From: Xanthostigma xanthostigma
Lineage: Eukaryota; Arthropoda; Insecta; Raphidioptera; Raphidiidae
Length of the DNA stretch: 64,000 nt
Direction: 5' to 3'
Assembly: GCA_963575645.1 (NCBI GenBank)
Contig: OY754469.1
Location: 46,272,753 to 46,336,752 of the forward strand
Shown here: positions 1,117 through 61,888 of the stretch, piece after piece
Position numbering within the stretch: the stretch's first letter is position 1
Layout of the letters: each line of letters starts with the position of its first letter
Translations under genes and position numbers: made by a program
Notes under the pieces: generated by a model
What the model saw: the letters and a program-made list of their open reading frames with translations, nothing else
Database searches by the model: none
Told to the model about the DNA's origin: nothing

Positions 1117-1371
1117 TGATAATGACCTTAAAATCTTTGATTAACGTCTGAATAGAACTCTTCAAATGAATAAAATTGTCGTGCAATCGATTAGTTAATA
1201 AATAACTTAATACTAATTAATTTTTATATTTTTTAGATATTTCTGAAGAAAATCCAAATCCGGATCGAAACGTCATCCTGTGTTATATTGATTTGTATTT
1301 TTATTATTTTTTGTCAATATATGGCCTGAGAAAAATTGGTCGACAATTTTATTCATTTGATAATGACCTTA
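1117..1371 (+). mobile_element. Penelope-like snapback, family i, 14-bp TSD
   Basis: The 14-mer TGATAATGACCTTA flanks the insert at 1117-1130 and 1358-1371. The insert (1131-1357) starts AAATCTTTGATTAACGTCTG and ends AATTGGTCGACAATTTTATT. The same termini recur at 13406, 15205, 52962, 61659 and 62710. Copies carry facing arms (ATTGTCGACCAATTTTTC and its complement) around a hammerhead-like core at 1243-1274. No ORF is present. Snapback plus a long variable TSD plus hammerhead core fits a deleted Penelope-like element. Confidence 0.6.
1243..1274 (+). ncRNA. Hammerhead-ribozyme-like core, family i
   Basis: CTGAAGA, one A, then AATCC/GGATC around loop AAATCC, then GAAACGTC. This matches the conserved hammerhead boxes CUGANGA and GAAA flanking stem II. 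One stem pair is lost here (A opposite C), which is intact in the 61.7-kb copy. There is one extra base after CUGANGA relative to the textbook fold. Activity is unproven. Confidence 0.45.
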
Positions 1372-2140
1372 ATTGTCTAGAATATCTACTAGTGTCCGAA
1401 CGAACTTTTGGTTCGGTTTCGGCGAATTTCGGCGTTAAATGGGAGTTCCGGTTTAGTTTCGGTGTCGGCAGAAAATCAGCCGATACTAGGACTGTAACCG
1501 AAACTAGGTTCGTCAGCTTCCGTGCGGCGTTCGGGAGCGATCGGCGTAGAAATGATTCGATAAACTCACTTAAAGACACTAACACCTCGTTTCATATCAA
1601 ATAGAATTGATACTTAGTTTTTTTAGAGAAACTAAACTATTAATCTATCAAATAATTGCTTCTATGGCCACAAACACATTTTGCAATTGCTAAAATAAAC
1701 AAAAGCTTAAAAAAATACACTAGAATTGGCCTGAATACTGTGGGCGAGCGCTAAGATGTTTACATAAACCATTTCGTCTTTTAGTAACAGATGTAAACTA
1801 TATATGTACGTTCCATATATTATTAAAATTTAGTTTTTTATGATCCAAGCAGATGATTTTCCTAAACTTTGGAATATTTCATATAAGCAGTAATTTAGTC
1901 TCAGATTCAGCGAAATTCTAGAAAATCAAAGATTCCTATTTTATTTAAAGCACCAATCTCATCATTCCAGCGCAAACAGCGTTAACATATAAACAAGAAT
2001 AGTCTTTGTTAAGAACTTACTACAGAACTTAAATAATAAATAGTCAAATAATTAATTTCGAACCACATTTCAATAATCACTACGTGTTTGAAAAAAAATG
2101 CATAAATACTTTCTGGAACTGCTAGTCTATTCCTTTATGT
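1372..2140. other. GC-rich patch, then featureless AT-rich DNA
   Basis: About 1390-1560 is locally GC-rich with repeated TTCGGTTTCGG/CCGAAAC words in both orientations, suggesting an old TIR element whose ends I cannot define. The rest shows nothing. Confidence 0.4.
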
Positions 2141-3128
2141 ACCTAGATCAGGTGTTGGCAACCTGCGGCTCGCAAGCCGCATGCGGATCTTTCGATGTAA
2201 AGTTGTAGCGCTCCAGTTCCATACGCAAAACTTAATTATTTTATTATTCTAGCTAAAATACTTTAATATGTTTTGTGCTAAAAACATTTGTGTTTTTATA
2301 TGAATAAATATTATTTTGTATTTAAAGTCGATAATTTTAAATAAAAAATTTGGTTGTCTGTAAAGCCGGTTTACGGACGATAGTTTTACGTGATAACGTA
2401 TTCCGTAATACATAACCTAAACCTCCCAAAATTTGGTTTCAATACGCTTATCCTTGGTGTCGGAATGATAAGAAATGTCAAAAGTGACGTTTGCAACTGT
2501 CAAAGTATTATGTTCTAATAATAATTAGTTATTCCAATACTTAACTTAGAAGGCGTTGCATTTCACAAAATACTAATGTCAAAAAATTGAATTAAACATT
2601 AGAAATGCAGCCGTTTTCATGTTAAGACAAGACATACGTTATCTTCTAATTTCCATGTACGGCAAACAAAGACGACCGACCGCGTCGCGCCATGCATTAG
2701 ACAACATTGCATTTATACAGCTATTTTTCTATATAAATTTGTATAAAAAAACTGTTTAGGCAAATTCTGTTATACGAAATCTATGTAAAATGTTCTCCTC
2801 TTTCGTTTAAGACTGGTTTCAAACCGATCTGATTTAAATTGAGCGAGAAATTAGCAAAAAGCACGCACAGGGTCAGGCGGAACGTTACGCGTTACGAACG
2901 TTAGGATTTAGGAACGTTACACTTTTTCGTGCATGCAGCCGGTGTTTTATCAATTTATAAGATTGGTGATTCATCAATTTATAAGACGTTATCACGTCAA
3001 AATCAAATATAATACCTATTGAAACATTGAAATGAAATTTTTCAACAGCTCTTTAAAAATTGAGAAATTTTAAAAATTGTAACTTTTGGCTCTTCCGTCT
3101 TAAAAGGTTGCTGACTCCTGACGTAGAT
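2141..3128. mobile_element. hAT non-autonomous element, split by an insertion
   Basis: The termini CAGGTGTTGGCAACCT (from 2149) and the complement of CAGGAGTCAGCAACCT (to 3120) are hAT-type inverted repeats. The flanking 8-mers ACCTAGAT (2141-2148) and ACGTAGAT (3121-3128) match at 7 of 8 positions, as expected for an aged 8-bp hAT duplication. Subterminal GGCTCGCAAGCCGCATGCGG and TTTTGGCTCTTCCGTC are typical of short internally deleted hATs. A 653-bp unrelated element occupies 2350-3002. Confidence 0.75.
2350..3002 (+). mobile_element. TTGGTTGTCTG element, copy A (nested in hAT)
   Basis: It starts TTGGTTGTCTGTAAAG and ends GACGTTATCACGTCAAAA. Both ends carry the word ACGTGATAACGT in inverted orientation, but the left end has about 34 extra bases outside it, so the termini are asymmetric. 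Related copies: B 3389-4155, C 22370-22980, D 23428-24063, E 24369-24566. A and D look nearly identical, implying recent activity or exchange. No ORF of note and no clear target duplication. I do not recognise the superfamily. Confidence 0.7.
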
Positions 3129-3388
3129 AGTAGTTGAACAGAAACCGTTTATTTCTTAATATTAGTAAACGTTAAAAAGTCAATAAAAATTGTTTTTGAT
3201 ATTGATAAAGAGTCGTTGTAATTACTGAATCGATTATAAAAAACCGCAGCTCGCAGGTATTTCTGTTATGATTGCATATTTTTGTAAATAAAAAATTATG
3301 AACTAGTGACCCTGTACTTCCACCATCTGTATAAATTAAAGACGTTAAACAAAAGGCCTCCGTACAATTTGAGCATGGGTGCAATATT

Positions 3389-4155
3389 TTTTGACGTGAT
3401 AACGTCTTATAAATTGATGAATCACCAATCTTATAAATTGATAAAACACCGGCTGCATGCACGAAAAAGTGTAACGTTCGTAACGTAACGTTCGTAACGC
3501 GTAACGTTCCGCCTGACCCTGTGCGTGCTTTTCTCGAAAACGGCCCTAACGATTTGGATGAAATTTACTGAAAAGGGATTTTGGGGGGCAAAAAATCGTT
3601 TTAGCTAGGTCTCATCTCTCGAAAAAATCGTTTTCTTACAAATTTTATCATTATAAAAATCAATTTTTTGACGTATGAAAATACTAAAATATTGTAAGTA
3701 GGTTTTGGAATTTTATATAAACAGTGAAACAATTGTTTTATAAATAGTATGACAGTTAATCTTTGAGACTTAAATAAATACGAAAGAAAGAAAGTTAATA
3801 AAAAAAATTATTTTTATAGGTGGTGAGTAATTTAATAAATAAAATTAACCTAAATTTGAAGCGAAAGATGCAATATCATAGATTCGAATTATTATACAAA
3901 TCTATTAATTTTGTGAAAAAATATATGCAGGCAACCCAAATTACGCTGCTGTACTACATATGCTTAGTCGCTAGCAGGCATGTTCAGTAAAAATTCGGGG
4001 AAATTTCGCATAATTGGATCTGTGCCTTTATATGCGACTGTTTACTTATGTTATTCTGATTTAATTTTTTTCAATTGTATAATTTTTCATCAATGTTTCT
4101 TTATGACGTTATCACGTAAAACTATCGCCCGTAAAGCGACTTTACAGACAACCAA
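3389..4155 (-). mobile_element. TTGGTTGTCTG element, copy B (inverted)
   Basis: Reads TTTTGACGTGATAACGTC at the left and ...CTTTACAGACAACCAA at the right, i.e. opposite to copy A 390 bp away. The interior (AACGGCCCTAACGATTTGG...) matches copy C rather than A, so two internal variants share the same ends. About 3900-4100 contains extra sequence absent from C. Confidence 0.65.
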
Positions 4156-4175
4156 TTTTTTTACAATATTTTATA

Positions 4176-4442
4176 TACTCTCTAAAACTGAAATAGTGAA
4201 AATGTCACTATTTGAAATGGTGCCTTCTGATTCACTTCCGAAATAGTGAATGGTCACTTATATAATTAGTTAATTTTTATATTTACTTATATAATTAGTA
4301 AATTTTTATAGTCACTTATATGATTAGTGAATTTTTATATTCACTAATTCTCATTGCGAGTATTCACTAATTCTGCTTGGTACAATTCCAGAATTGACAA
4401 ATAGTGAATATTGAAAAATAACTGATTCATGTTTAGAGAGTA
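4176..4442. mobile_element. CTCTCTAAAAC MITE, TA target, copy 1
   Basis: The termini CTCTCTAAAACTGAAATAG and ...CATGTTTAGAGAG are flanked by TA on both sides. The interior is a run of ATTCACTAATT / AATTAGTGAAT words in both orientations, so the whole element can fold on itself. Relatives are at 14108, 18372 and 18927. A TA duplication suggests a Tc1/mariner-type mobiliser. Confidence 0.7.
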
Positions 4443-4448
4443 TAAGGC

Positions 4449-4590
4449 ACTAGCGGTCCGATCTGACTTCTCCCAAATTTGTAAACTGCCACCGTTTTTT
4501 CGTCGACTTACGTTGCAAAATTGGTCTCCGCGAAAAGCGTTTTTTTTAACGCGATAATATAATATAGCCTATTGTTCATTCTACGAGTAC
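4449..4590 (-). mobile_element. CCGGACCGG-type insect retroposon-like repeat
   Basis: Contains CTAGCGGTCCGATC, TGCCACCGTTTTTTCGTCGA, CTTACGTTGCAAAATTGGTC and GCGATAATATA...TAGCCTAT. The same blocks occur at 10351-10600, 13461-13653, 25831-25955, 36121-36855 and 61034-61082. This repeat is widespread in insect genomes; class (RTE-like tail or SINE) not decided. Confidence 0.55.
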
Positions 4591-5324
4591 ATATTAGAGA
4601 ATTTTTTTTGAAATATTGGTATAGTTTAACAAACAACTCTCACAGTATGTGGATTCACACAACGCGCCTAAAGATGTTTTACTCAAAAATTCCCTGACAA
4701 TTTCTGGTTTTCAGAGTTTGCTCCAGCCTGAAGAATTTTTTTTAAATTTCAGCTGATGTTAAATTCATCGTTCAACTTTGAACCGACGCAAAATTCTTTG
4801 AGATTGCTGGTACAGCATTTACACTTTACAGCTGTATAGTTTAGCAAAAGCAACGCTTTGCAGAGAGCACGACGCAAAGAGCTGACGGGCAAGTCGAATT
4901 GTCAGTCACAACATACACCGCGTTTTGTATGCGTCTGTCGTCGTAAAGCAACGCCGCCCCGTCGACCGAGGCACAACTCGAGCTTAAAACATTTTTACGC
5001 AACGTTTGTTGTATTCTTTCTCTCTCACCCACACACGCATTCTTACAATTTGCATCGAGGTACCTGTTTCGAACCACTGAACTATATTCTTGTTTAGAGT
5101 CTTTTTTATGGACGCTACTAACTCGATAAGTGTTTTTTTTATCCTCAAATAGCTATTCAACCAATAAACATTCAATTAAAAATACTCAGGGTTTTTAACA
5201 AATTTACAGAGAACGGAAATTTTATTTATATATAAAACAACAATTGCAGGAATAAAAAAATGTCATTAATACACATTCGGTAAAGTGTATAATAATTTTC
5301 ACAGACATTTTTCATATTCATTTT
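4591..5324. other. No recognisable feature
   Basis: Mostly AT-rich; 4850-5060 is somewhat GC-richer (GACGGGCAAGTCG, CGCCCCGTCGACC) but shows no splice-bounded frame and no family I recognise. Confidence 0.4.
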
Positions 5325-5992
5325 TTAAGGAGGTTGAGCCGTTTTACGAAGATTTTGAAAATAATCTGAAATAAAGTTTTTTTAATAGATTTTTTTATGA
5401 CAAAATTTTCTGTAAAAAATCCAAAATCATTAGGAGATTTATAAAGTTAAAAATTAATAAAAACTTTTACATGTAGTCTTATGGAAAATATGTCAACCTA
5501 GCCTGCAAACTGTTCATTTTAATTTTTTGCAAATAACCAAATAATGTCAGCAGTTCCGAAAACTAACTATGTAAAGCATCGATGTTTTACGCATGTATTA
5601 ATATTTTTTCCAATTTAATTAGGAGACTTTTAATCAATAAAAAAAATTATTAAACATTAGCACTTTTCGATTATGGACTTTTAACTGAATTTTCAACTTT
5701 TTAATAACTTAATTTTAATTTTTATTACTTCTAATTTCTTTTTTTAATTATTTACTGCAAAAAATATGTAAAATACAGATATTTACATAAATTTATTTTT
5801 TTTTAACCTAACTTCGTACAAAAAATTCAAAAGCTAGAAATAATTAATTAATATTTAAAAAAATATTTATTTATGCCTTTATGACAATAATTTATTGGGA
5901 TCATCGACTTTTGTAAAAATTTATTATGGAAAAGTTCCCATTTAGAATTCGACTTACTTTTGATTGGAACTGTAACGGATCAACCTCCTTAA
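5325..5992. mobile_element. TTAA-target element, copy 1
   Basis: TTAA at 5325-5328 and 5989-5992 brackets a 660-bp unit whose ends are GGAGGTTGAGCCGTTTTAC and the complement of GGAGGTTGATCCGTTACAG. Two further copies (33290-34054, 37520-38230) have the same orientation, the same ends and perfect TTAA. TTAA duplication is diagnostic of piggyBac (also Sola3); the GGAGGTTG terminus is not the classic piggyBac CCC... end. No coding capacity. Confidence 0.8.
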
Positions 5993-6677
5993 ATTTATGA
6001 TTTGAGCGAATTTTAATTGGTTTTACTTCTCAACGGAGCGAGCTCAATCAAAAATATTTATGGTAATTTTTCTTAAAATAATATTTCAGTTCAGTGTCAT
6101 CTTTGCTGTATGTACAAAAAAGATTATACAGTTTGAAATAGTTTTTTGCTTTTGAGAAAAAGCTAACGCTCACAAATTTAACATTTGAAAAAATTAAACG
6201 TTATAAACTACAATCTTCTCTTAAAATGCGAAACAAACAAAATAAAATAGTGAAGAGTTTTTTTGCAAGACAGTGAAATCTTGACATCAATTATTTTAAT
6301 AGCTTGGATTTCAACTGCAGACAATTTCCTGGTTTTAAAACAATATTATTTCATTCAAATTTTACTTTAATTTCAATGATTGGATTACTCGATTTTTTTT
6401 GTATTAGAAGTATTTTTACTACATAAAACAGGCATTCAATTTTTTTAATAATTAATTATTATACCGATTTGATTACAGAATATTAAAATATTTAAATGTT
6501 ATTAACTTTTTTAACTGCAAAGACTTTTTAAAAGACAGGCAGGAATCGTTTTTTTCCGAAAAATCCGAAATTATTTTTTGTGTTTAATATTTTAACACAA
6601 ACAAAGAATACTTTACAACTTCAATGGTGTGATCTTCATTTGTTATCCTATACACTCATCATAATTTCACAAACCAG
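5993..6677. other. No recognisable feature
   Basis: AT-rich, homopolymer-laden sequence without repeat termini or plausible exons. Confidence 0.45.
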
Positions 6678-6968
6678 ATTAAAGGGGGCACCTAGTGTAA
6701 CCGCTCAAAAAAAAACCGCTTATTTCAAACATTTTATTTTTGGACTAACTATATTTTTATATTTTAATGAATTAGGCCTTATAGAACATCTTTTAAAGTT
6801 CTCAAAAAAATTGTATTAATTTTTTCGGTACAAAATGGCGGCGTGGTAAGCATTTCTATATATTATATCGTTTTGAAATTTTGTAGGCATAGGTATTCTA
6901 CATAATATTTCGAAGCAAAAAACAATAATAAATATTTTTGGGCTGTTACACTAGCTGCCCCCATTAAG
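6678..6968. mobile_element. MITE with GGGGGCACCTAG termini
   Basis: GGGGGCACCTAGTGTAACCG (from 6684) faces the complement of GGGGGCAGCTAGTGTAACAG (to 6962), roughly 28-bp imperfect TIRs. Flanks ATTAAA and ATTAAG suggest a short TSD differing at one base. 279 bp, non-coding. Single copy in the window; superfamily uncertain. Confidence 0.65.
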
Positions 6969-7525
6969 AGAACCTGATCTACATATATTTTATTCATGAA
7001 ATTGAAACAGAAAAATACCACAGCTTTTTTATACAAAAAAGAAACTTTAAAATGAAAAGAATCGATTTTTAAATAACGTGATTTGAAAATGCACATTGAA
7101 CCTTTTGACGAAGACAGATACACACAATACAAATAATTACTCAGCCTTGTATAAAAGCTACAAAAACAAGTTTTCATTTAGGAATGTAAAGAAAGCGAAC
7201 TCCCCAACAATACATTGACGTCAATTTAATCTCGTCATTAACATTTGAGGGTAAAAGAACATCTTAAGGCCAAATAAACATCGTACAACTAAACAACAGA
7301 ACCATGAATCAGGTAAGAGGATCACCGTCATTATACGCTGGTACCATTTCCTGTGATAAAGTTCGCTAGTCGCTATACAACCGATAGAACACATCTGCGG
7401 TTACAAAACAAAATGGCTTATGTCATAATTTCTCAAAGTAATTAAACCTTCCAGGAGTAATAATAGTTCACTGTAGTGTAATAATTTTTGCGCGGCATTT
7501 AAACATGGAAAAGTTTTTTTCATTG
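6969..7525. other. No recognisable feature
   Basis: Unique AT-rich sequence. Confidence 0.4.
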
Positions 7526-8040
7526 GTTTTAACTAGTGATGTGCCGGACCGTTAAAAATGTATATCCGCGGATACGGATCTGAATACGGATTTTTGGTTT
7601 CAAGATCCGCGGATACTTTCTTAGAGTACGCGGCGGTAAATATTGCACATCGACCTTTGGAAAGAGACTATCTGTTATGGGAAAAAGTTATTGACCTCTT
7701 TAAGAGTTAACTCTCATAGCAGATTGTCTCTTTCCGAAGATCGATGTGCAATATCTCATTATAAAGATAGTTGATTTAGTACCTTTGAGTTATGTACTAT
7801 TAGTATGGTACTCACTACGATAAATGTTTGCAATATAAAGGTGCCAAATATACGATTTTAAAAAATAAAAAATAATCTGAATAGAATTTAACAGTTTTTC
7901 ATTATTACCTAATCACTTATATATATAAAATTTCATATATGAATTGAAAATTAATAAGGTAAAAGATCCACCAAAAACTAACGGATACGGATATGGATTT
8001 TTCTTCTCCCTCGGATATCCGGCACATCACCAGTTTTAAC
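7526..8040 (+). mobile_element. hAT MITE TAGTGATGTGCCGG, copy 1
   Basis: A 499-bp unit (7534-8032) with TIRs TAGTGATGTGCCGGA and TGGTGATGTGCCGGA, flanked by a perfect 8-bp duplication GTTTTAAC (7526-7533, 8033-8040). TIR and TSD are diagnostic of hAT. Subterminal regions are built from repeated GGATACGGATC / GATCCGCGG words. An internal hairpin (ATTGCACATCGACCTTTGGA and its inverse, about 7640-7757) is present. Other copies: 17322-17815 and, inverted, 60396-60950. No ORF. Confidence 0.92.
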
Positions 8041-10263: not shown

Positions 10264-10350
10264 ATATTATTATTATTATTATTCCTATGGAAGTCTTTAT
10301 GTAACAAAAGTTCTAATTAAAAGATTTCATCATTATTCACGGAAATCTAT

Positions 10351-11880: not shown

Positions 11881-12124
11881 TGTAACAATTATTATTATAT
11901 TATTCAACATATTTATTAACGTAAGTTTGTAACATGAATGTTATTTAATTCAACATATTCATTAACGTAAGTTTGTAACATGAATATTATTTAATTCAAC
12001 ACATTTATTAATTTAAGTTTTTTAACATGAACACTTCCTAGTTCATACGCTCCTCTGCCATCTTGCCTTTGTTTTCCAACATGACCACCAGAGTACACCA
12101 GTGGCGGCGTGGCTTTTTTAGACA
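11881..12124 (-). mobile_element. LTR (TGTAACA...TGTTACA family), truncated, minus
   Basis: The plus strand starts TGTAACAATTATTATTAT, the complement of the LTR 3' end; it runs through two copies of a roughly 53-bp subrepeat (ATTCAACATATTNATTAACG...) and stops after GGCGGCGTGGCTTTTTTAG, before the expected terminal GTGTTACA. Related to the LTRs at 13062-13298 and 62284-62487. No PBS follows it, so it is a solo or broken LTR. Confidence 0.6.
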
Positions 12125-13061: not shown

Positions 13062-13298
13062 TGTAACACCACGTCTTAAAAAGCCACGCCACCACTGGTC
13101 ATGTAAACAAACAGAGGCAACATGGCAGCGGAGCGTATGAACTAGGAAGTAGTGTTCATGTTAAAAAACAATGAATATGTTGAATTAAATAATATTCATG
13201 TTACAAAGTAATGTTAACAAATATGTTGAATTAAATAATATTCATGTTACAAAGTAATGTTAACAAATATGTTGAATAAAATAATAATAATTGTTACA
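13062..13298 (+). mobile_element. LTR, plus orientation, followed by PBS
   Basis: It begins TGTAACACCACGTCTTAAAA and ends AATTGTTACA (TG...CA). Three bases later comes a tRNA primer-binding site, so this is a 5' LTR. It holds two tandem copies of a roughly 53-bp unit (GTTGAATTAAATAATATTCA...), whereas the 62-kb LTR has one. No gag-pol follows: the sequence immediately inverts. Confidence 0.7.
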
Positions 13299-13301
13299 AA
13301 C

Positions 13302-13319: not shown

Positions 13320-13320
13320 C

Positions 13321-18490: not shown

Positions 18491-18778
18491 CATATAAGTG
18501 AATGATGAGTATTTGTCAAGAATTCCGCGGCATAAGGATCGAAAATGAAGCAATACTGAGACTTTTTTAAACTTGCATTTAATACTAACGTTTCGATACG
18601 TTTTGTATCATCTTCAGAAAGTTCTGTAATTATATTTTCTTAGTTATAAAATTGTTTTGAATTAAAATGTAATTATTCGTAAATGTTAGAAAACTTACCA
18701 AATGCTGTCACATGTTATCAGTATATTGTTGTTGATGGATTGAGAACATGGTGTCACTCAATCTTCATATAAGTGAAT
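18491..18778 (-). mobile_element. Penelope-like family ii with 13-bp TSD, nested
   Basis: CATATAAGTGAAT occurs at 18491-18503 and 18766-18778, bracketing 18504-18765. The insert starts GATGAGTATTTGTCAAGAAT and contains GGCATAAGGATCGAAAATGA and a hammerhead-like core on the minus strand (18585-18617). Relatives are in 50508-51470. Nesting shows it is younger than its host MITE. Confidence 0.7.
18585..18617 (-). ncRNA. Hammerhead-ribozyme-like core, family ii
   Basis: On the minus strand: CTGAAGA, T, GATAC-AAAAC-GTATC (perfect 5-bp stem), GAAACGTTAG. Both conserved boxes are intact. Catalysis would also need stems I and III, which I cannot confirm. Confidence 0.5.
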
Positions 18779-19876: not shown

Positions 19877-20028
19877 TGTATATGTCACCGGGATATTGTC
19901 AAACCCGTGATATTATAATTTCACTTAGTGAAATTACAATATCACGACTCTTTGTCAATCGTGATATTGTAATTTCACTAGTGAAATTACAATATCACGG
20001 ATTTGACAATATCCCGGTGACATATATA
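19877..20028. mobile_element. Double-palindrome MITE, TA-flanked
   Basis: Outer TIRs ATGTCACCGGGATATTGTC (from about 19882) and its inverse (to about 20024). Between them two roughly 40-bp palindromes, each built on CGTGATATTGTAATTTCACT and its complement, sit head to tail. It is the most palindrome-dense stretch in the window. Non-coding. Confidence 0.7.
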
Positions 20029-20098: not shown

Positions 20099-20221
20099 CT
20101 TACCACAGCAGTTTTATTAGCGGATATACATTTCGGGAGCTATGCTCTTATCTTCAGTGTTTGCTGAAGATGAGAGCATAGCTCCGAAATGTACATCCGC
20201 TTATAAAACTGTTGTGGTAAG
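20099..20221. mobile_element. Penelope-like family iv snapback, copy 1
   Basis: Arms of about 58 bp (CTTACCACAGCAGTTTTATT... and ...AAACTGTTGTGGTAAG) flank a 6-bp spacer TGTTTG at 20158-20163. Each arm contains CTGAAGAT-GAGAGC, ATA, GCTCC and CGAAATGTAC words, a hammerhead-like core with GAAAUG in place of GAAACG. The second copy is at 42970-43214. Confidence 0.55.
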
Positions 20222-26114: not shown

Positions 26115-26476
26115 GCAGATTATGCTAACAATGGTAGGACAGCTCTGCAAATGTTTAATGATGGTAAAAATCGGTGTAAAAAATAAAAAAAGCTAGCAGC
26201 GAGGTCAAGAAAGCGCTGTTGAGTGATGTGCAATTTCCAAGCTAAAATAATTACGAGCCAGAAATAAGCTAGACGTATGCACAAACAATATAGATGCAGA
26301 TTATGCTAACAATGGTAGGACAGCTCTGCAAATGTTTAATGATGGTAAAAATCGGTGTAAAAAATAAAAAAAGCTAGCAGCGAGGTCAAGAAAGCGCTGT
26401 TGAGTGATGTGCAATTTCCAAGCTAAAATAATTACGAGCCAGAAATAAGCTAGACGTATGCACAAACAATATAGAT
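26115..26476. repeat. Exact 181-bp tandem duplication
   Basis: Units 26115-26295 and 26296-26476 start GCAGATTATGCTAACAATGG and end CACAAACAATATAGAT. I see no difference between them by eye, and a third GCAGATT starts at 26477. The absence of divergence means a recent event or an assembly/collapse artefact. No coding content. Confidence 0.85.
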
Positions 26477-26876
26477 GCAGATTAATATCTAAGCCGCATA
26501 ACCCACAATGCACATACCTAATATAGGTAGGTGTATAAACAACAAGCGGTATATTGTTGTCTATAGGTATCTCGTCTACAAAAACTATATACAAGGAATT
26601 ACTAGCTTATGTTTAATTTTCACAATTTTTGGTTTGTCTTATGACACATTCACTATTGATGTCGGTCGGATGGCGTTATTTGGGGATCACTTTCACGCTT
26701 GTGTAAAGAGAGCTATATCTATGGAAAGAGATGTATTATATCAGCCACCGCATAAAACATGTTTAAAGAACTTGTGAACGTGATTCAAAATCCGAAAATT
26801 CGCAAAAGAATTGTTTTATTATCTATTCGTAACGTAGATTCTAAGTCATATTTGATTTTGATGATATAATAACAGG
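26477..26876. other. No recognisable gene
   Basis: A 25-bp stretch around 26652-26678 (GTCGGTCGGATGGCG) is shared with 44339-44360. Nothing else recognised. Confidence 0.35.
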
Positions 26877-27004
26877 AAAAATGGAACCTTATTCTGTACA
26901 AAATATTTATTTTTGTTGCCAATTATAGAGCCCTGGAGAAGTCTCAAGTTAAAAACGAAACGTTGGCAAAAAAAATATATTGTACAGAACGAGGTTCCAT
27001 TTTT
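26877..27004 (+). mobile_element. Foldback with degenerate hammerhead-like core
   Basis: Arms AAAAATGGAACC...CTGTACA (26877-26922) and TGTACAGAAC...GGTTCCATTTTT (26962-27004) flank a loop holding CTGGAGA, A, GTCTC..., AAAAAC, GAAACGTTGGC (26933-26966). The first box has G for A at the fourth position. The GAAACGTTGGC end matches family v, so this is a probable relative. Confidence 0.4.
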
Positions 27005-28849: not shown

Positions 28850-29137
28850 CTTCTTGATTTCCGGGCTTGTAAAGCCGTGGTCCATTGATATTTTTACCTG
28901 ACGTTTCGTCTACAACTGCGGTAGACATTATCAAAGGCGATGTGGTAGCGGGTGAAGTGTCCTTCTAGACTGCTCACAGGTAAGTGTGTCTTTTATGGTC
29001 AGCGTGCTCGTGTTCTCTACTCGGTCGTAGTATGCTCTTCTGTGATTGGTCGTTCCATTCAGTGGGTTGGTATTGCACAGTGCTGGTGTCCAGGTTTTAC
29101 TTAGATTCAAACTTTCATCTTCCAAAAGAAACTTCAT
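28850..29137 (-). mobile_element. Penelope-like family iii remnant
   Basis: On the minus strand a 68-codon open frame precedes the hammerhead-like core at 28898-28935. The tail reads CGGCTTTACAAGCCCGGAAA. The region from AAGGACACTT through the core recurs at 47986-48130. A short 3' coding end followed by a hammerhead core would fit a Penelope-like element, but no RT motif remains. Confidence 0.45.
28898..28935 (-). ncRNA. Hammerhead-ribozyme-like core, family iii
   Basis: Minus strand: TTGATAA (decayed CTGATGA), T, GTCTAC-CGCAGTT-GTAGAC (perfect 6-bp stem), GAAACGTCAG. The 48-kb copy keeps TTGATGA but has a weakened stem, so each copy preserves what the other lost. Confidence 0.45.
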
Positions 29138-29219: not shown

Positions 29220-29757
29220 TAGATTTTTTTTAATTAATGGGAGTCGGCTTCTCACCGGGAACACCGAAGCCTCTCCCGATCTCTTATATCACTCGATCCA
29301 GTATCCTCGTTCCTTGCACTGGCTTGTACAGTCCGTGGACTGGGTGATTGATACAACCTTCTGGACTCATTCAGAATCGTAGAAGGCAGATAATTTATGG
29401 ACAATGTAGAATGAGTCATTCTACATTGTCCATAAATTATCTGCCTTCTACGATCCAAAGCCTCGAATTCACACAGAATATGACAAGCTGTTTCCGTCTC
29501 CTTATTGCACTGTCTGCACTTTAGGTTCCAGTTAAACAGTCCGATTCTTTGGAGTTGTCCTTTCAGGGCACAATTCCTGTCAGGAGGCCTACCACGAGAC
29601 GAAGATTGTTCCTACTGAGTTGGAGTAATTCTTCAGTAATCTTTCGGGATGACCCTTTAAAAGTTTTGTCATGTTGCTGCCCGGAAATTTGTTTCTAGTA
29701 TGGCTTGAGCTGATTTTTTATCCATTCCCTTATTTGACTCCGTATTGTGCTTAATTT
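29220..29757 (-). pseudogene. LINE ORF2 C-terminal fragment
   Basis: Minus-strand conceptual reading, allowing frameshifts: IREWIKNQLKPY, stop, KQISGQQ..., LLQLSRNNLRLVVGLLTG, then +1 shift to CALKGQLQRIGLFNWNL, CRQCNKETETACHILCEFEA, LDRRRQIIYG. R-x-L-R-x-x-V-G-L-L-T-G followed by a Cys-x2-Cys...His...Cys knuckle is the end of the RNase H region and terminal zinc motif of R1/Jockey/I-type non-LTR elements. At least one stop and one deleted base kill it. A-rich sequence at about 29225 (minus-strand tail side) suggests the 3' end. Upstream ORF2 is missing (5'-truncated). Confidence 0.75.
29376..29454. repeat. Exact 79-bp palindrome inside the LINE fragment
   Basis: ATCGTAGAAGGCAGATAATT...GTAGAATGA (29376-29414) is repeated without a mismatch as its reverse complement (29416-29454) around a single central G. 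It lies in the coding tail of the LINE, where it duplicates coding sequence backwards. Confidence 0.85.
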
Positions 29758-35469: not shown

Positions 35470-35592
35470 ATATGTTACGGTAAATGTAAACTCTTGGGAA
35501 ATGTACACTTTTACCGTAAAATGTACACATTGTCCGGCACATTTTACGGTAAAAGTGTACATTCCCAAGAGTTTACATTTACCGTAACATAT
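35470..35592. mobile_element. Snapback with ATGTTACGG ends
   Basis: Arms of about 52 bp (ATGTTACGGTAAATGTAAAC ... TTTTACCGTAAAATGTACAC and inverse) around a short loop ATTGTCCGGC. It ends in the same ATGTTACGGT terminus as the 742-bp element at 41399. A further copy of the terminus (GACCGTAACATATATAT) lies at 35338-35354. Confidence 0.65.
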
Positions 35593-42969: not shown

Positions 42970-43214
42970 TTCATATTTTCAATTAGAAAGATATTTATAA
43001 AAAATAATGAATAGTTGCTTCTTCCACAACAATTTTATTAGCGGATGTACATTTCGGGAGCTATGCTCTCATCTTCAGCAAACTAACTAAACTTTAGTGT
43101 TTGCTGAAGATGAGAGCATAGCTCCCGAAATGTACATCGGCTAATAAAACTGCTGTGGAAGAAGCAACCATTCTTTATTTTTTTTTAATATCTTTCCAAT
43201 TGAAAATATATGAA
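42970..43214. mobile_element. Penelope-like family iv snapback, copy 2
   Basis: Arms run from ATTCATATTTTCAATTAGAA to GCTCTCATCTTCAG and back, about 108 bp each, around AAACTAACTAAACTTTAGTG. CTGAAGAT-GAGAGC-ATA-GCTCCC-GAAATGTAC occurs on both strands (43047-43078 minus, 43104-43135 plus). Longer and better preserved than the 20.1-kb copy. Confidence 0.6.
43104..43135 (+). ncRNA. Hammerhead-ribozyme-like core, family iv
   Basis: CTGAAGA, T, GAGAGC-ATA-GCTCCC (five of six pairs), GAAATGTAC. GAAA is kept; the following C of other families is T here. The mirror copy lies at 43047-43078 on the minus strand. Confidence 0.4.
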
Positions 43215-47985: not shown

Positions 47986-48130
47986 GGATTTTAGATCGTG
48001 GTTCACTGTTTTTATCTGACGTTTCGGCTTCAACTGCGGTAGACATCATCAAAGATTGTGAGTGGCTTAGAAGGACACTTAGTTCGCTGTCACATCGCCT
48101 TTCAAAATGTCTACTGCAGCCTTCAAGTCC
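47986..48130 (-). mobile_element. Penelope-like family iii, copy 2
   Basis: Shares AGAAGGACACTT, the CTACCGCAGTTG core block and an ACCACG(A/G)...CCCGG(T/A) tail with 28850-29137. The hammerhead-like core is at 48016-48053 on the minus strand: TTGATGA, T, GTCTAC-CGCAGTT-GAAGCC, GAAACGTCAG, stem partly broken. Confidence 0.45.
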
Positions 48131-50507: not shown

Positions 50508-50636
50508 ATTTGACTCTATTCAATAAATAGAGTAACTGTGATCCATTGAAGTTAATGATAGGTATTTGGAAAAATTCCGAGGCATAAGGATCGAAAATGA
50601 AGCAATACTGATTTTTTTTTAAACTTGCATTTAATA

Positions 50637-50669
50637 CTGACGTTTCGATACGTTTTGTATCATCTTCAG
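50637..50669 (-). ncRNA. Hammerhead-ribozyme-like core, family ii
   Basis: Minus strand: CTGAAGA, T, GATAC-AAAAC-GTATC, GAAACGTCAG. Perfect stem. Ends GUC where the 18.6-kb copy has GUU; both satisfy NUH. Confidence 0.5.
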
Positions 50670-51309
50670 AGTTTTCAAATGCTGTCACATATTATCAGTA
50701 TAAATAGAATGACAGATACATAGACAAAAATTAAAAAACATAAAATATTTCTTTATCTTTTAAGGAATCCAAAAAATATTGTTGAAATACCGTAATGACA
50801 TGCATTCGTGTTTTTGCACAACCCTATCGGTTATTCAGTGGCAGGTCACCACCCCATTCAAGCAATGTGTTCGTAGTGTGATGCGTAATACGTGTAGATA
50901 CACCCTCTATTGATGGATGATGGATCGACGGTCTGTTCGATTCTATGTGCCTATATGTTACTCTAATGTTGAAAGTTACATGTTCTGTGTTGAGGTTATA
51001 TTTCTGATTAGTGTCTCAATTCTGACTTCTAAAATCCAGAAAATTATCTCTGACCTCTGACAAGATATATTTACAGACACTTTTTGTTAAATGTCGTTTT
51101 CGGCATTGCATATGAAACAGAATTTTTATAAGATTCAAATCAATAAATAAATATTCGTGAAATAATAATAATAATGATGAGTATTTGGAAAGAATTCCGT
51201 GGCATAAGGATCGAAAATGAAGCAATTAACAATTAACAAGTTGAGTGACACCATGTTCTCAATCCATCAACAACAATATACTGATAACATGTGACAGCAT
51301 TTGAACACT

Positions 51310-51342
51310 CTGAAGATGATACAAAACGTATCGAAACGTTAG
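51310..51342 (+). ncRNA. Hammerhead-ribozyme-like core, family ii
   Basis: Plus strand: CTGAAGA, T, GATAC-AAAAC-GTATC, GAAACGTTAG, identical to the 18.6-kb core. It lies between the arms of the 51.2-kb snapback. Confidence 0.5.
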
Positions 51343-51475
51343 TATTAAATGCAAGTTTAAAAAAATCTCAGTATTGCTTCATTTTCGATCCTTATACCAC
51401 GGAATTCTTTCCAAATACTCATCATTAACTTCAATGGATCACAGTTACTCTATTCATTGAATAGAGTCAATCTTC

Positions 51476-51519: not shown

Positions 51520-51649
51520 ATAACAGACGCCATTCGCACAATTACTATTTTCCATCCATTACACTTCCCGTTATTTACTACATTTTTTAAACTTCCACTT
51601 AATTAATAGCAATGGACGAATGAAGGAATTTTAAGACATTAAGATAAGG

Positions 51650-51890: not shown

Positions 51891-51902
51891 TAGATTTTAA
51901 GT

Positions 51903-52162
51903 ATATAGATCAGGGGCGGCAAATCTTTTGATCGGCGGGCCACATAGCTGATGAAGAAAATTCGACCGCGGGCCAAATATTTGCAGAGCAAAAAAAGAAA
52001 TCCTCACATTCTATTTCCGCATTTGGAGAGCAAAAAAAAAAGATTTTCGTCTGTTCTGGCGCCCTTGCTATTTCTTTACTATTTTTCTAAAATTTATAAA
52101 ATGCTTCACGGGCCGGACAAAATTGTGCTGCGGGCCGCCATTTGGCCAGGCCCGATATAGAT
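51903..52162. mobile_element. hAT MITE CAGGGGCGGC beside the exon
   Basis: A 244-bp unit (51911-52154) with CAGGGGCGGCAAATC and ...TTTGGCCAGGCCCG ends and a perfect 8-bp duplication ATATAGAT (51903-51910, 52155-52162). Subterminal CGGGCC words are typical of hAT. Its edge is about 31 bp from the exon at 52194, inside the intron just after the exon's donor. Confidence 0.9.
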
Positions 52163-52193
52163 TATAATAATAATTTCAAAAATTCAGACTCAC

Positions 52194-52475
52194 CGTTATG
52201 AACTAGAAGAGTGGAATCTCTGGCCAGGGCCAATTCAGAATCCGTTAGTGTGGCGTCCGATGCGTTTTCTGACGTCGGTGTGTCGCTGAGTCCAGCGCCG
52301 GTCGGCGCTTGCTGATAGAGGGGATGTTGATACGTATGATCACTACCACCGCCGCTACCGCCGCGGTGGTACTGCTGATTACGTGGCCTCCGCTGTCTGG
52401 CCGGTGAACCGCTATCTACGTCTTCGCCCTCGGAACCGCTTAAACTGTACGCCCCATACACACGACCTCCTTTAC
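52194..52475 (-). CDS. Internal coding exon, teneurin-like cytoplasmic region
   Basis: The only convincing host exon. On the minus strand the acceptor ...ATTGTTGCAG precedes the exon (first base 52475) and the donor GTGAGT follows it (52193-52188). 282 nt encode 93 full codons with phase 1 at both ends, so skipping keeps frame. The peptide has KGGRVYGAYSLSGSEGEDVD near the start, an Arg-rich RQRRPRNQQ, a Gly/Ser stretch, then LSDTPTSENASDATLTDSE and LARDSTLLVHN. Low-complexity, polar, no TM or signal. 'YSLS-G-S-acidic' followed by 'SENxxxxTLTDS' mirrors the order in vertebrate teneurin intracellular domains (YSLSTGSD..., RENSALTLTDS), from memory. It could instead be another cytoplasmic low-complexity region. 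GC content is far above its surroundings. Neighbouring exons are not in the window. Confidence 0.6.
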
Positions 52476-52480
52476 CTGCA
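52470..52480 (-). promoter_or_regulatory. Acceptor that recreates a donor (recursive-splice-like)
   Basis: Minus strand reads TGCAG|GTAAAG: the intron ends in AG and the exon opens with GTAAAG, close to the donor consensus GTAAGT. Recursive splice sites of long insect introns have this AG|GT form. The upstream pyrimidine tract is weak, so this is suggestive only. Confidence 0.4.
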
Positions 52481-52961
52481 ACAATTGATTTACTCATTTC
52501 TAAACATTGATAAAAAACATGAAATTCCGTTAAACCACTTATTAAACCCAAATTAAGTAATGTAAGGCTAGTCAAGAAGTGAGATTTTATGAGAAAAATA
52601 GATCCAAGTCTAATATTATTCGATTCGGAAAAATATTGCGAAAAGGTTTTTTTATTTTTTTTCGCCGACAAAAATTACATTTGTTATTAACAAAAAACGA
52701 AAAGACGAAAGAAAGCCCTTCAGATTTTTGGCAATTACTCAAAAACTATAAGCGATAGCGGAAAATAAAAAAAAAAGATTCTTAAAGAAGAGAAAATTTC
52801 CAATAATAAAATCCCACTCCCGGAATTCTATCTCTTAATCTCTATTATTTATAGTTTTAATTTAACGTTGAAAATAGGGTTCCACGCGGTCGTTACAGCT
52901 CGAGCGCAACGCCCTGTTGAGAGAGAACACTGTACAAAACATAAAATAATTTTTAATAATC
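52476..52961. other. Intronic sequence, nothing recognised
   Basis: AT-rich upstream flank of the exon. Confidence 0.4.
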
Positions 52962-53258
52962 AAATCTTTGATTAACGTCTGATTAGAACTCTTCAATAAA
53001 TAAAATTATCGACCAATTTTTCAGACAATATATTAACAAAAAAATATATAATTAATACATTAACGTTTCAATCCGGATTTGGACCTTCTTCAGAACTGAT
53101 CTAAAAAATATAAAAAATAATTAATATTTAAATTCTAATTAGCTTTTTATAAAATCTTTCAAAATTATTAATGATTATCAAAATAATGAAATTTAAACGT
53201 TAATGTATTAATTATATATTTTTTTGTTATATATTGTCTGAAAAATTGGTCGATAATT
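52962..53258 (-). mobile_element. Penelope-like family i, long snapback
   Basis: Begins AAATCTTTGATTAACGTCTG; arms AATTATCGACCAATTTTTCA...ACATTAACGTTT (52997-53068) and inverse (53195-53258). The core CTGAAGA, A, GGTCC-AAATCC-GGATT, GAAACGTTA is on the minus strand at 53061-53093. Confidence 0.6.
53061..53093 (-). ncRNA. Hammerhead-ribozyme-like core, family i
   Basis: Minus strand: CTGAAGA, A, GGTCC...GGATT, GAAACGTTA. The two stem changes relative to the 61.7-kb copy give G-U pairs, so pairing is retained as RNA. Confidence 0.5.
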
Positions 53259-53393
53259 AAGCTTGAGGCCCTGAAGATGAAAATAAATTTTTCGAAACGT
53301 TGGCCACTAGCGAAACATTGGTAAAGCTTATTTATTTATGATTCTCAACCAAAACCATCCTTCATCGTAACATTCTATTGGATCAACACTACT
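53259..53393 (+). mobile_element. Penelope-like family v fragment
   Basis: AAGCTTGAGGCCCTGAAGAT ... ATTGGTAAAGCTTATTTATT. The hammerhead-like core is at 53271-53303. AAGCTT...AAGCTT bracket it as short inverted words. It is joined directly to the family-i copy. Confidence 0.45.
53271..53303 (+). ncRNA. Hammerhead-ribozyme-like core, family v
   Basis: CTGAAGA, T, GAAAA-TAAAT-TTTTC (perfect 5-bp stem), GAAACGTTGG. Confidence 0.5.
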
Positions 53394-54375
53394 TTATGCT
53401 GAAGATAATATATACTTAACATGATCACGTTATAAAAGTTTTCAAAAATTGTTAAATTTGTTTATTATTATTTTTTGTTAACTTTAAAAAATTTTAACAA
53501 AATTTTGATTGCTATTTTAAGTAACAGATTTATGTTTCTAGTCAAACTCAATATTAGATAAACACGCAATTTTTCTCATCGGGTCAAAGGCACGCAGAAA
53601 ATGTATAAGTCCAAAAAGAACACCCACTAATCGGAAAAAAAGTAATTTAACAAAAGAGAAGCGAATTTCTAAAATATTATTTAGTCCCAGCCTGTATACA
53701 CACATATGTACCAGCGAGTTCTAGTGCTCAGTGAAGCGTCACCTGGAGTTGCCTGAACGCCGTTCTCAAGCCATGTGCTGTCTTGTCTGTCTGTCTATCT
53801 ATCTGTATGTGTGTATTATATATAAACGCGAGTCTGGGTTACGTGAAGGCGGGAGAGAAGACTATATGCGGCAGCCTCTCCTGCTTGCCTGATTGCGTGG
53901 TTCGTTTAGCAATACCTTGACGTTGCGGAAATCGAGGATTTATCTTACCGAAGGCTCGATAACGTGCCTATATCTCCATTGGGAAGATGTGCATAGGCGG
54001 AACTTTGCAGCTTAAGTCACCGTATAATTAAATTGGATTAGGTGTACTTCTGGATTTGGGGACCGATTAAAACTCTCTAAAAAATATTCAGTAAGCACAG
54101 ACTTGGAAAATTATGCACGGTTTAAGTCACCGTATAATTAAATTGGATTAGACATACTTGTGACGTGTGAACAATTAAAAGTTTGCACAAATAGCACTGC
54201 ACACTTTTACTGTAATCAGATTTTTATTAAACTGCACGAGAACATTTTATAAGAAATATAATCGAGATTTTAATATAACAATGTTTTACCTAATTTACAC
54301 TATTAAATTATTGATGTATCACGATTGCGTTTCTAACCTATATAAAATCTAAGTAAATGTATTGGGTTCCTTTAA
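53394..54375. other. Unassigned, contains a 30-bp direct repeat
   Basis: 53700-53960 is moderately GC-rich with TCTGTCTGTCTATCTATC; no exon recognised. The direct repeat at 54012/54122 is listed separately. Confidence 0.35.
54012..54151. repeat. Direct 30-bp repeat, 110-bp period
   Basis: TTAAGTCACCGTATAATTAA-ATTGGATTAG occurs at 54012-54041 and 54122-54151 with no mismatch. The sequence between is unrelated, so this is either an insertion with an unusually long duplication or an incomplete tandem duplication. Confidence 0.75.
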
Positions 54376-59222: not shown

Positions 59223-59320
59223 TATGCATAAGTACGGAGTACTATTAAAATCCACGTTGAATTTGACACTGTTAAATGTTTTAGCGATGTCATGATAAAA
59301 AAAATCTTTATTTCGGTCGT

Positions 59321-59575
59321 TCAAGGTACCTCAGATTGTAAAAAATGCCCTCGGAAAATTGTGATCGCAAAAAACATTTTATAACTATTTTTAAGCTTGA
59401 CCCAGCATATTTGTTTGTTAACTATCTTCGCTTCAAATCTTGCAATAGCTTTTTCAACTACTTCCCGGTATCCGATTGAGTTGAAATTTTGCATACGTAT
59501 GTAGTTCCGATGACAATACAATATAATAACTGACCGGTCCAGCTTTCGTCCGGATGCAAATCGCAATTTTAATAA
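59321..59575 (-). repeat. Composite insect repeat, second copy
   Basis: Inverse of 27530-27664: AGCTTTTTCAACTACTTCCC, GATTGAGTTGAAATTTTGCA, ACTGACCGGTCCAGCTTTCG. Fragmentary. Confidence 0.5.
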
Positions 59576-59650
59576 AGCACATTAAAAACTTGAAAATAAA
59601 ATAGGTTAAAAAAGCTTTTAAGATGTACTAAAAACTAGAAAATAATTCTA

Positions 59651-59818
59651 AGTCACCATAGGGGACTTTAACATAAAATCATGGGGGCATTCATATGGTT
59701 GAAGAAAACAGTCGAAAGGTAAATATGATTTCAAATCTCAAACAAATGGAAGTTGTCTACTAAAAGCGCCCCACGCTTTTATTTTAGTTTAGTTTAATCA
59801 AAGCCCCCTATGGTGACT
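59651..59818. mobile_element. MITE with AGTCACCATAGGGG TIRs
   Basis: AGTCACCATAGGGGACTTTA (59651) faces the complement of AGTCACCATAGGGGGCTTTG (59818). 168 bp, non-coding, no clear duplication. Confidence 0.65.
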
Positions 59819-60395
59819 CATAACTATTTTACATACATAAACTATTATTTTGCACTAAACTAAAAATGGTGGTAGGTTCAATTAACTCTTTTCATGCAAT
59901 GAAATTGGTTTTTAAGTACGATGAACTTGCTTTCCTCTGAATTAATTTTTAATCAACAAGACATTTCTTTCAATGAACAGTTAACTGGTTGAATTTTTTT
60001 TCATCGTGACAGTGTCTGTACTCATGAATTACTAACGATCAAGCTATTAGCTATATGGACTAAACCTTTTTTTAAAGAACAACCTACTAATGATATCGTA
60101 CCAGTTCTTCCGTACATTTTTTATAGCATTAATTAGACAAAATTTGTATTTCAGTAATGGAAAATTAAACAACAGAGCTTTGTTGCTATTTGTCAAATTA
60201 CATGAAAATATCTAATGTTTTATAACATAGTACATATAGTTAAGCATAATTCTATTTTATCTTTAACTATAAATTATCAATAAGCATTCAAAATCGAAGT
60301 CTAATGAAAGCTAAATAACTGTTAATTAATAACAAATACCTAAAAAACTGCTCAGAACGCATTCAGAAAATATTAAACGAAAATTAGAAGCAAAT
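59819..60395. other. No recognisable feature
   Basis: Unique AT-rich sequence. Confidence 0.35.
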
Positions 60396-60950
60396 GTTAG
60401 CACTAGTGATGTGCCGGATATCCGTATCCGTATCCGCGGATATTCGAGGGAGAAGAAAGATCCGTATCCGTATCCGTTAGTTTTTAGCGGATCTTTTACC
60501 TTATTAATTTTCAATTCATAGATGAAATTTTATATATATATATAGGTGATTAAGTAATAATGAAAACCTGTTAAATTCCATTCAGATTATTTTTTATTTT
60601 TTTAAAACGTATTTGGCACCTTTATATTGCAAACATTTATCGTAGTGAGTACCATACTAATAGTACATAACTCAAAGGTACTAAATCAACTATCTTTATA
60701 ATGAGATATTGCACATCGATCTTTGGAAAGAGACAATCTGTTATGAGAGTTAACTCTTAAAGAGGTCAATAACTTTTTCCCATAACAGATAGTCTCTTTC
60801 CAAAGGTCGATGTGCAATATTTACCGCCGCGTACTATAAGAAAGTTAAGATCCGTATCCGTATCCGCGGATCTTGAAACCAAAAATCCGTATTCAGATCC
60901 GTATCCGCGGATATACATTTTTAACGATCCGGCACTTCACTAGTTAGCAC
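60396..60950 (-). mobile_element. hAT MITE TAGTGATGTGCCGG, copy 3
   Basis: A 539-bp unit (60404-60942), inverse of copies 1 and 2, flanked by a perfect 8-bp duplication GTTAGCAC. One TIR has a T for A (TAGTGAAGTGCCGG on the complement). It keeps the full internal hairpin and is the longest copy. Confidence 0.92.
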
Positions 60951-61033
60951 CACCTCTCACATAGAATTAATGATAAATCGATAAATTGTAGATTGCCCTT
61001 CACGTAATACATAAAATAATTTGCTCATGTAAC

Positions 61034-61082
61034 AACGGCGGCAATCTACAAATTCGGGCGAAGCCGAACCGGACCACTCGTA
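61034..61082 (+). mobile_element. CCGGACCGG-type repeat, terminal fragment
   Basis: GGCGGCAATCTACAAATTCG, GGCGAAGCCGAACCGGACCA. Only the last 49 bp of the family remain. Confidence 0.5.
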
Positions 61083-61647
61083 ATTTATAATTTCAGAATC
61101 GTCCTATTCCTCGTCATTCAAAATTTCATAAAAATTTTGCCAAGACAGCGCCTTACGCAATCGCACCGACCCTGGTCTCTATGTTCAGTTGAAAACCCTG
61201 ATTCAAACGCAACGAAATACAAATGCATTTACAATCCTCTAAGGATGTGCAAAATCTAGCACACATCGTAATGTGTATGACAATCATATGTCAAATGATT
61301 TGACATTTACCGCATACAGGGATACATGCATATTTGACTACAATGCGACTGCTGAATATAAAATCACTTACTTGCTATACAATCGAACCAATTTAAAATG
61401 GTGCATCTGTTCATATAATATTTACACATTTGTAACAAAACCGGTTCAAAGATAAAAGTGAAAACGTCAAAAAACAACTCTAAGATTTAAAGCAATTAAA
61501 AATATTTACCGTTTACTCTACAAATGGAAAATTTGATCTTTTTTTTAATGTATTCCAACTGTATATAACCACATATATAGAGCATATGCACATATATAAG
61601 AGAATATCACTTGGGGATGTCACTACCTCTTGGTATCTGGCCAGTGT
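61083..61647. other. No recognisable feature
   Basis: Unique AT-rich sequence. Confidence 0.35.
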
Positions 61648-61888
61648 ATTTAATTATCAAATCTTTGATTAACGTCTGAATAGAACTCTTCAATAAATAA
61701 AATTATCGAGCAATTTTTCAGACAATATATTAACAAAAAATATAATTAATACATTAACGTTGCGATCCGGATTTGGATCTTCTTCAGAACGGATCTAAAA
61801 ATTAATTAATTAATAATTAATATTTAATTTCTAATTCGCTTTATTGTCTGAAAAATTGGTAGATAATTTTATTTATTATTTAATTCTC
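61648..61888 (-). mobile_element. Penelope-like family i with 11-bp TSD
   Basis: ATTTAATTATC (61648-61658) and ATTTAATTCTC (61878-61888) flank 61659-61877. Starts AAATCTTTGATTAACG, ends AATTTTATTTATT. The core is on the minus strand at 61755-61787. Confidence 0.65.
61755..61787 (-). ncRNA. Hammerhead-ribozyme-like core, family i
   Basis: Minus strand: CTGAAGA, A, GATCC-AAATCC-GGATC (perfect stem), GCAACGTTA. One base of the GAAA box is mutated (GCAA), which should abolish cleavage in this copy. Confidence 0.45.

Follow-up and report, generated by a model that had tools for sequence, protein, structure and literature searches.

The window analysed here is a 64-kb stretch of a eukaryotic assembly of 623 Mb (Xanthostigma xanthostigma, GCA_963575645.1, contig OY754469.1). 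It contains a series of short motifs resembling the hammerhead ribozyme, which a first-pass annotation had listed at eleven positions. Each site very probably represents an intact or decayed hammerhead from the pseudo-long terminal repeat (pLTR) of a Penelope-like element (PLE), of a minimal type I form with stems I and II, without a stem III of its own and with one extra base after A9. Sequence evidence establishes the core, both stems (through their covariation), the register of GUH, a palindrome where stem III would be, the position upstream of PLE frames in two families and the anatomy of the insertions.

Hammerhead motifs in the window and in the genome

A direct reading of the window sequence confirmed a copy of the motif at all eleven listed coordinates. 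The core strands match the consensus at eight of these and deviate at the other three, namely 61755 (GCAA in place of GAAA) and the minus-strand sites 28898 and 48016, where CTGANGA is replaced by TTGATAA and TTGATGA, respectively. The layout originally described, with one base followed by a 5-bp stem II flush with GAAA, is present at five of the eight consensus sites (18585, 50637, 51310, 53061 and 53271), and the reported G-U substitutions that keep stem II paired were found as two G-U pairs at 53061. The other three consensus sites depart from this layout: an A-C mismatch occupies the closing position of stem II at 1243, and stem II at 20164 and 43104 consists of GAGC/GCTC only, being shorter and set back from GAAA.

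The motif in the window is real. Six copies with both core strands and a stem of at least 4 bp were counted, as compared with a mean of 0.77 and a maximum of 3 in 30 first-order Markov shuffles; when GAAAYG was also required, six copies were found in the window versus none in the 30 shuffles. Genome-wide, the pattern CTGAWGA-N8-36-GAAACGT has 19,265 matches (9,599 + 9,666), as opposed to 137 (68 + 69) for the reversed pattern.

A covariance model (R1 in Table 1), built from 18 copies that all lie outside the window and giving rough E-values, recovered all eleven listed sites, ten of them at E 3e-11 to 0.01 and 20164 at 0.19. Seven sites (50637, 51310, 53271, 18585, 53061, 61755 and 1243) scored between 3e-11 and 7.5e-6, and three (48016, 28898 and 43104) between 0.005 and 0.01. 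The model also added sites that had not been listed, i.e. a minus-strand partner at 43078 (E 8e-4) and a degraded plus-strand copy at 26925-26972 (E 3.5e-5); a further unlisted minus-strand partner, at 20157, obtained an E-value of 9, no better than chance. All families have one common architecture, and their earlier description as unrelated repeat families therefore does not hold.

Stems, covariation and the cleavage triplet

The sequences examined include sixty 4-kb loci, all within the first 5 Mb of contig C1 and around most of the listed places of the pattern, and 20 short loci that were picked by eye for their diverse stems, the flanks being unseen at selection. They were grouped by single linkage into 14 families, a grouping that is rough. 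The core strands CUGANGA and GAAA are joined by stem II, as in hammerheads. A hammerhead further predicts that the bases directly before CUGANGA pair with the bases directly after GUH, forming stem I. The input to this test was limited to copies whose stem II is 4 bp or longer and is preceded by exactly one extra base (92 of 129 motif matches), and as a result of this filter the test cannot speak on the extra base. In the strict register, 38 of the 42 first-three positions of the 14 family representatives were found to pair (37 of them Watson-Crick), a figure that was reached by none of 20,000 flank swaps between families (swap mean 20.8 of 42). A stem I run of at least 3 bp is present in 11 of the 14 families, as compared with only 0-2 of 14 in eight other registers. 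The pairs themselves are diverse, and include GGCC/GGCC in family C, TTGC/GCAA in L037 and L005, AGTC/GACT in L064, ATAC/GTAT in L070 and AGTAT/ATACT in L073 and L082.

Covariation was evaluated in an alignment of 18 sequences, some of which share a family, drawn from the 20 candidates that pass the stem I filter; it omits L017 and L027, whose stem regions measure 14 and 26 nt, as well as the third family A copy, L034, and adds L029 (a second family B copy). In this alignment 90.6% of the stem I and stem II cells are paired, as against 54.9% after shuffling and no more than 46.4% after sliding; 66 cells have changed on both sides (shuffled mean 22.7), and the covariation score is 0.946 (0.251 shuffled, at most 0.184 slid). 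For stem II, 97.7% of the cells are paired and four of the five pairs have changed on both sides. The NUH triplet is also present, the base after GU being other than G in 19,097 of the 19,265 genomic copies and G in 168. The hammerhead architecture proposed for the motif is thus supported by a stem I in register, by covariation, by the GUH triplet and by the conserved core.

An extra base and a palindrome in place of stem III

In all sequence examined, 94 of the 129 motif matches have a stem II that is flush and 4 bp or longer, and in 92 of these 94 exactly one base separates CTGANGA from it, confirming the extra base reported previously. The loci behind the 129 matches include the 20 picked by eye for their stems; in an earlier set, from which these are excluded, 75 of 85 copies (stem of at least 3 bp) have one extra base. 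This base is A or T in 90 of the 92 copies. In a canonical hammerhead stem II follows directly after A9, with the 10.1-11.1 pair beside the core, and this is not the arrangement found here. Section 8 of PMC3088659, which deals with rare core variants, describes insertions behind A6 and within the GAAA strand, but not the one seen here. A general search of the PLE-hammerhead literature, which was not aimed at the extra base, met with no report of it in the portions of the sources available. In the Poseidon element PAc of Anolis carolinensis, the AUG start codon comes directly after G8 of the core (PMC11167929), and therefore A9 is followed by U-G there too, likewise in the CTGAAGATG families here. 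By analogy, the extra base may be a general trait of PLE hammerheads and not one of this lineage, as had been suggested.

There is no stem III, nor space for one in cis, GAAA continuing straight into CGU and the predicted cleavage site. The place of stem III, between GAAA and UH, is held by the four nucleotides ACGU or AUGU. ACGU is self-complementary, and the AUGU of family D is self-complementary via two G-U pairs; two copies can therefore form a common 4-bp stem III in which the cores swap cleavage strands, and pairing of two copies in this way is nested. A palindrome instead of stem III is as expected for ribozymes that act as dimers.

Association with Penelope-like elements

A search for the GIY-YIG domain led to a 6-kb region (L069) in which PLE copies are arranged partly in tandem and partly inverted. 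Its open frame of 804 residues matches the Pfam domains RVT_1 (E 3.1e-11) and GIY-YIG (E 1.2e-5); the Pfam scan of PLE frames tied to the motif covered this family D element. The family D motif lies 58 nt upstream of the frame and at two more places in the region (positions 2852-, 133- and 5825+). Within the motif there is an in-frame TAG, and the first in-frame ATG is found about 124 nt downstream of C3. Likewise, the family A motif is present at position 169 of L091, upstream of a PLE frame of 835 residues. The proposed residence in PLEs is thus borne out: families D and A lie just upstream of frames for reverse transcriptase (RT) and the GIY-YIG endonuclease, placing them in the pLTR of a coding element. 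As regards the suggestion of a non-autonomous set, the two families whose link to a coding element could be followed, A and D, represent the ends of elements with their own RT and GIY-YIG endonuclease, and for these two a separate set is not supported.

At least 57 genome matches were found for the protein of L069 (56 of 2,072 candidates scored). Among the matches listed, 31 have 83-100% identity (L069 included), with 27 at 96-100% and the other four at 83-94%, and a further 26 have 30-37% identity, some with open frames above 800 residues. These data suggest recent spread for the L069 element only (27 of the 31 close matches at 96-100%), and the earlier claim of activity is supported for none of the window copies. 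No relatives of the L069 protein were found in viral contigs and plasmids, and window positions 1-8000 had no match to phages.

The upstream regions of four PLE frames (L069, L090, L091 and L092), out of the 57 protein matches, were read. In L090 (C1:75241600-75242000), a degraded hammerhead-like stretch upstream of a PLE frame of 844 residues reads TAGATGATGGCCATGTTGGCCGAAACTAGTC, and has the palindrome ACTAGT (ACUAGU) instead of ACGT.

Anatomy of the insertions

The window copies are short terminal pieces. In families A, B and C, copies have in common the ribozyme and roughly 85-150 nt downstream of it. When the right end of each copy was taken as its third-best BLAST end, the 3' ends of families B and C fell into two classes about 25-35 bp apart, at 115-122 and 144-148 nt in family B and at 84-109 and 131-137 nt in family C. 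The 3' ends of family A are spread over 41-154 nt, with no clean separation into two classes.

Copies frequently occur in pairs. Among the first 100 genome places of the pattern (on C1), neighbours within 500 bp are arranged head to head ('-+') in 17 cases, in direct order ('++') in one and as '+-' in none. Inverted pairs were measured for families A, B and C, leaving out the L037 and L064 pairs. In the fetched loci of families B and C taken together, exactly one end is tailed in five of seven inverted pairs and neither end in the other two; in family A exactly one end is tailed in all six pairs, at a cut of 126 nt set by the analyst. Both ends are tailed in the family B pair 50669/51310 of the window. 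Exact flanking repeats of 8, 12, 12, 13 and 13 bp were found in five of the ten inverted pairs tested, without a chance control, and these five pairs therefore look like single insertions. Inverted or tandem pLTRs with an optional tail and a target duplication, as are characteristic of PLEs, can thus be recognized here. In the window, a repeated 10-mer beside the pair 50669/51310 was considered as a target duplication and rejected, as it lies inside the palindromic tail; the other three window pairs and the single copy tested yielded no target duplication.

Proposed mechanism and alternative explanations

We propose that a tandem PLE transcript would carry two or more ribozymes, and that two copies would pair via the ACGU (or AUGU) palindrome, with each core cutting the other strand after GUH; judging from published work, this cutting would probably be helped by the PLE protein. 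Cutting by dimers would process tandem transcripts. Reverse transcription would begin at one of two sites about 85-150 nt downstream of the ribozyme and would proceed back through it, such that the window copies would be its short products, several of which would consist of two cDNAs in head-to-head junction. Many of the window copies are probably dead.

Several observations weigh against the assignment to PLE hammerheads. No Rfam hammerhead model matched the window or 14 loci, even at E <= 10 (at the gathering cut-off, the window likewise gave no hammerhead), and this is literally the outcome that the first-pass annotation, in proposing the check, had named as refuting its idea. The miss carries little weight, because the motifs lack stem III and have an extra base beside the core. 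That base is itself a departure from the canonical hammerhead consensus. In RNA folding at 25 C, the dimer hammerhead was the minimum-energy fold in none of the 14 families, and folding alone therefore gives the model no support. In strict register, stem I is shorter than 3 bp in three of the 14 representatives: it measures 1 bp in A, the commonest family, 2 bp in D and 0 bp in L075. Two of these, A and D, are precisely the families linked to PLE frames; inspection by eye, however, gives a 3-bp stem I (AAT/ATT) for the L091 copy of family A, and family D gains 6 bp (TTAGTG/CACTAA) past a small loop. In the alignment, eight of the nine pairs have changed on both sides, a count that does not exceed that in shuffled alignments, of which 234 out of 500 reach it. 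According to the NUH rule, a G after GU should not allow cleavage, and G is found in this place in 10 of the 21 genome places of the small family CTGATGANGCTA..TTAGCGAAACGT. Of the four PLE upstream regions that were read, L090 has only a degraded motif and in L092 no motif was found. Finally, no PLE domain was detected by Pfam in 10 of the 14 open frames of the window, which gave a single weak match below cut-off (ADIP, E 0.074).

Another reading is that the sites are relics of PLE hammerheads, in which the ribozyme has fallen into disuse and the stem-loop is kept as a binding site for the PLE protein or as a signal for reverse transcription. This would agree with the damaged cores of several window copies, with a lower activity that the extra base and the missing stem III could bring about, and with findings on PAc, for which ribozyme-dead mutants still support insertion in vitro and RNA-seq ends at the cut site were not found (PMC11167929). 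However, core, GUH triplet and in-register stem I have been kept across families with quite different stem sequences, and a protein-binding stem-loop requires neither H17 nor a stem I that starts exactly after H17; we consider this reading unlikely. In vitro insertion of PAc takes place without the cut. There is some slight chance that the palindrome is kept for pairing two template RNAs and not for cutting. The hammerhead dimer would then hold two transcripts in a dimeric PLE protein, and both cut target strands would be primed at once, one per start site. If true, this would explain the head-to-head inserts, their usual combination of one tailed and one untailed end and the in vitro insertion by cleavage-dead ribozymes, and the extra base would be the mark of a hammerhead variant tuned for dimer formation.

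The arrangement of the copies bears on two further explanations. Metazoan retrozymes are small tandem repeats, non-autonomous and hammerhead-bearing, whose spread takes place via circular RNA. They are likewise short protein-less elements with type I hammerheads, and they coexist with PLEs in animals according to the accessible part of PMC7229834. Direct tandem repeats with canonical hammerheads are not what is found here, as 17 of 18 close neighbours lie head to head and only one of 18 in the same direction, there is no stem III, and two of the families, A and D, are part of PLEs that have reading frames, which makes a retrozyme origin highly improbable. The many inverted pairs, and the long palindromes made by family D copies (with a microRNA-like match at 43045-43137), would also be compatible with a DNA motif of palindromic miniature inverted-repeat transposable elements that has no role as RNA and resembles the hammerhead by accident. 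Yet matches to the reversed pattern are rarer by a factor of 140, and the layout along which the bases covary is that of a hammerhead, including stem I; this in-register covariation rules the explanation out, and we give it hardly any credence.

Relation to known elements

Minimal type I hammerheads in PLEs were already known, and are attributed to Cervera and De la Pena 2014 and/or Lunse et al. 2017 in the available parts of PMC6155905, PMC7761336, PMC7229834 and PMC6466107. As described in the portions available, they resemble those found here in being located in pLTRs and lacking helix III, for which reason they may work as dimers (PMC6155905, PMC7761336; dimers are also proposed in PMC6466107), and their role in these retrotransposons is termed still a mystery (PMC7761336). 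They may differ in the extra base between A9 and stem II, which is present in 92 of 94 copies here.

The PAc hammerhead likewise consists of stems I and II only, and its cleavage requires the protein (PMC11167929). Reverse transcription of PAc starts 111-118 nt into the frame, which begins at the ribozyme, and the optional tail of 30-40 bp corresponds to the gap between two RT start sites, as here (PMC11167929). In contrast to PAc, the L069 frame does not start at the ribozyme, given the in-frame TAG in the motif. The Penelope families of Adineta vaga, as far as described in the available text of PMC3846280, share with the present elements head-to-head inverted pLTRs, palindromic junctions, target duplications (8-10 bp, versus flanking repeats of 8-13 bp here) and an optional tail, of 31 bp, on one of the inverted pLTRs, comparable to the one-tailed pairs here; they differ in that 37 open reading frames are shown, whereas thousands of short terminal copies are found here. 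Metazoan retrozymes are, in the part of PMC7229834 available, also non-coding repeats with type I hammerheads, but with canonical hammerheads in direct tandem repeats.

The association itself is already known in animals, and what is added here are new members, very many copies and an extra base that may be unreported. A resemblance seen by eye has become a tested assignment. The class has 19,265 pattern matches in one eukaryotic genome and is unseen by current Rfam models in the window and 14 loci; as these models are blind to the loci run, surveys built on them may overlook it. The extra base and the palindrome provide direct handles on a cutting versus an RNA-pairing role of PLE hammerheads.

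Copies in the window

Table 1. Hammerhead motifs and related copies in the window, with E-values from the covariance model R1
Position	Strand	Feature	R1 E-value	Remarks
1235..1282	+	Hammerhead motif, family A (stem II AATCC/GGATC, closing pair mismatched)	7.5e-6	Homology to other copies spans about 1128 to about 1364
18579..18625	-	Hammerhead motif, family B (GATAC/GTATC)	5e-10	Element extends over about 18496-18624; 3' end untailed
20119..20165	-	Degraded motif, family D, head-to-head partner of 20164	9 only	Found by eye
20156..20201	+	Hammerhead motif, family D (GAGC/GCTC, GAAATGT)	0.19	Same family as the pLTR in the L069 PLE
26925..26972	+	Degraded hammerhead-like copy, unlisted in the first-pass annotation	3.5e-5	Reads CTGGAGA ... 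GAAACGTT, then GGC; stem I GCC/GGC by eye
28892..28942	-	Hammerhead-like motif, family E (GTCTAC/GTAGAC), core TTGATAA	0.01	
43040..43086	-	Hammerhead motif, family D, head-to-head partner of 43104	8e-4	
43096..43142	+	Hammerhead motif, family D	0.01	
48010..48060	-	Hammerhead-like motif, family E, core TTGATGA	0.0046	
50631..50677	-	Hammerhead motif, family B, tailed 3' end	3.3e-11	Head to head with the 51310 copy, 640 bp between
51302..51348	+	Hammerhead motif, family B, tailed 3' end	5.9e-11	Stem I ACT/AGT, continued by eye with GCATTT/AAATGC
53054..53101	-	Hammerhead motif, family A (GGTCC/GGATT), right end 139, long class	2.4e-8	
53263..53309	+	Hammerhead motif, family C (GAAAA/TTTTC), stem I GGCC/GGCC	9.8e-11	Element extends over about 53259-53405; tailed
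61748..61795	-	Hammerhead motif, family A, damaged core (GCAA for GAAA)	8.6e-8	

The head-to-head pair at 53054-53309 combines motifs of two families, A and C, which lie 178 bp apart; elsewhere the pairs are formed by members of the same family, and the mixed pair has possibly arisen by insertion of one element beside the other. The family E copy at 28898 has U3 and A8 together, leaving the C3-G8 core pair pairable, a change that has been reported in natural hammerheads (PMC3088659, section 8). In the second family E copy, at 48016, U3 is combined with G8. For these core changes, seen in two copies only, decay is as likely as a variant that keeps the pair.

Other features of the window

Matches to microRNA-like Rfam families were all under the family cut-offs, and those at motif sites coincide with inverted pairs. 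Long hairpins scoring below cut-off as microRNA families are located at 35471-35591, 60704-60815, 29370-29460, 19905-20000 and 463-565, and are probably palindromic repeats. A 181-bp unit is duplicated in tandem at 26115-26484, with 100% matches. A minisatellite unit of 46 bp is found at 11881-12031 and, in opposite orientation and about 1.2 kb apart, at 13174-13300; the two sites are possibly the ends of one element. On the minus strand, an open frame of 170 residues at 52162-52674, rich in serine and glycine and without a Pfam match at E <= 1, looks like a host exon.

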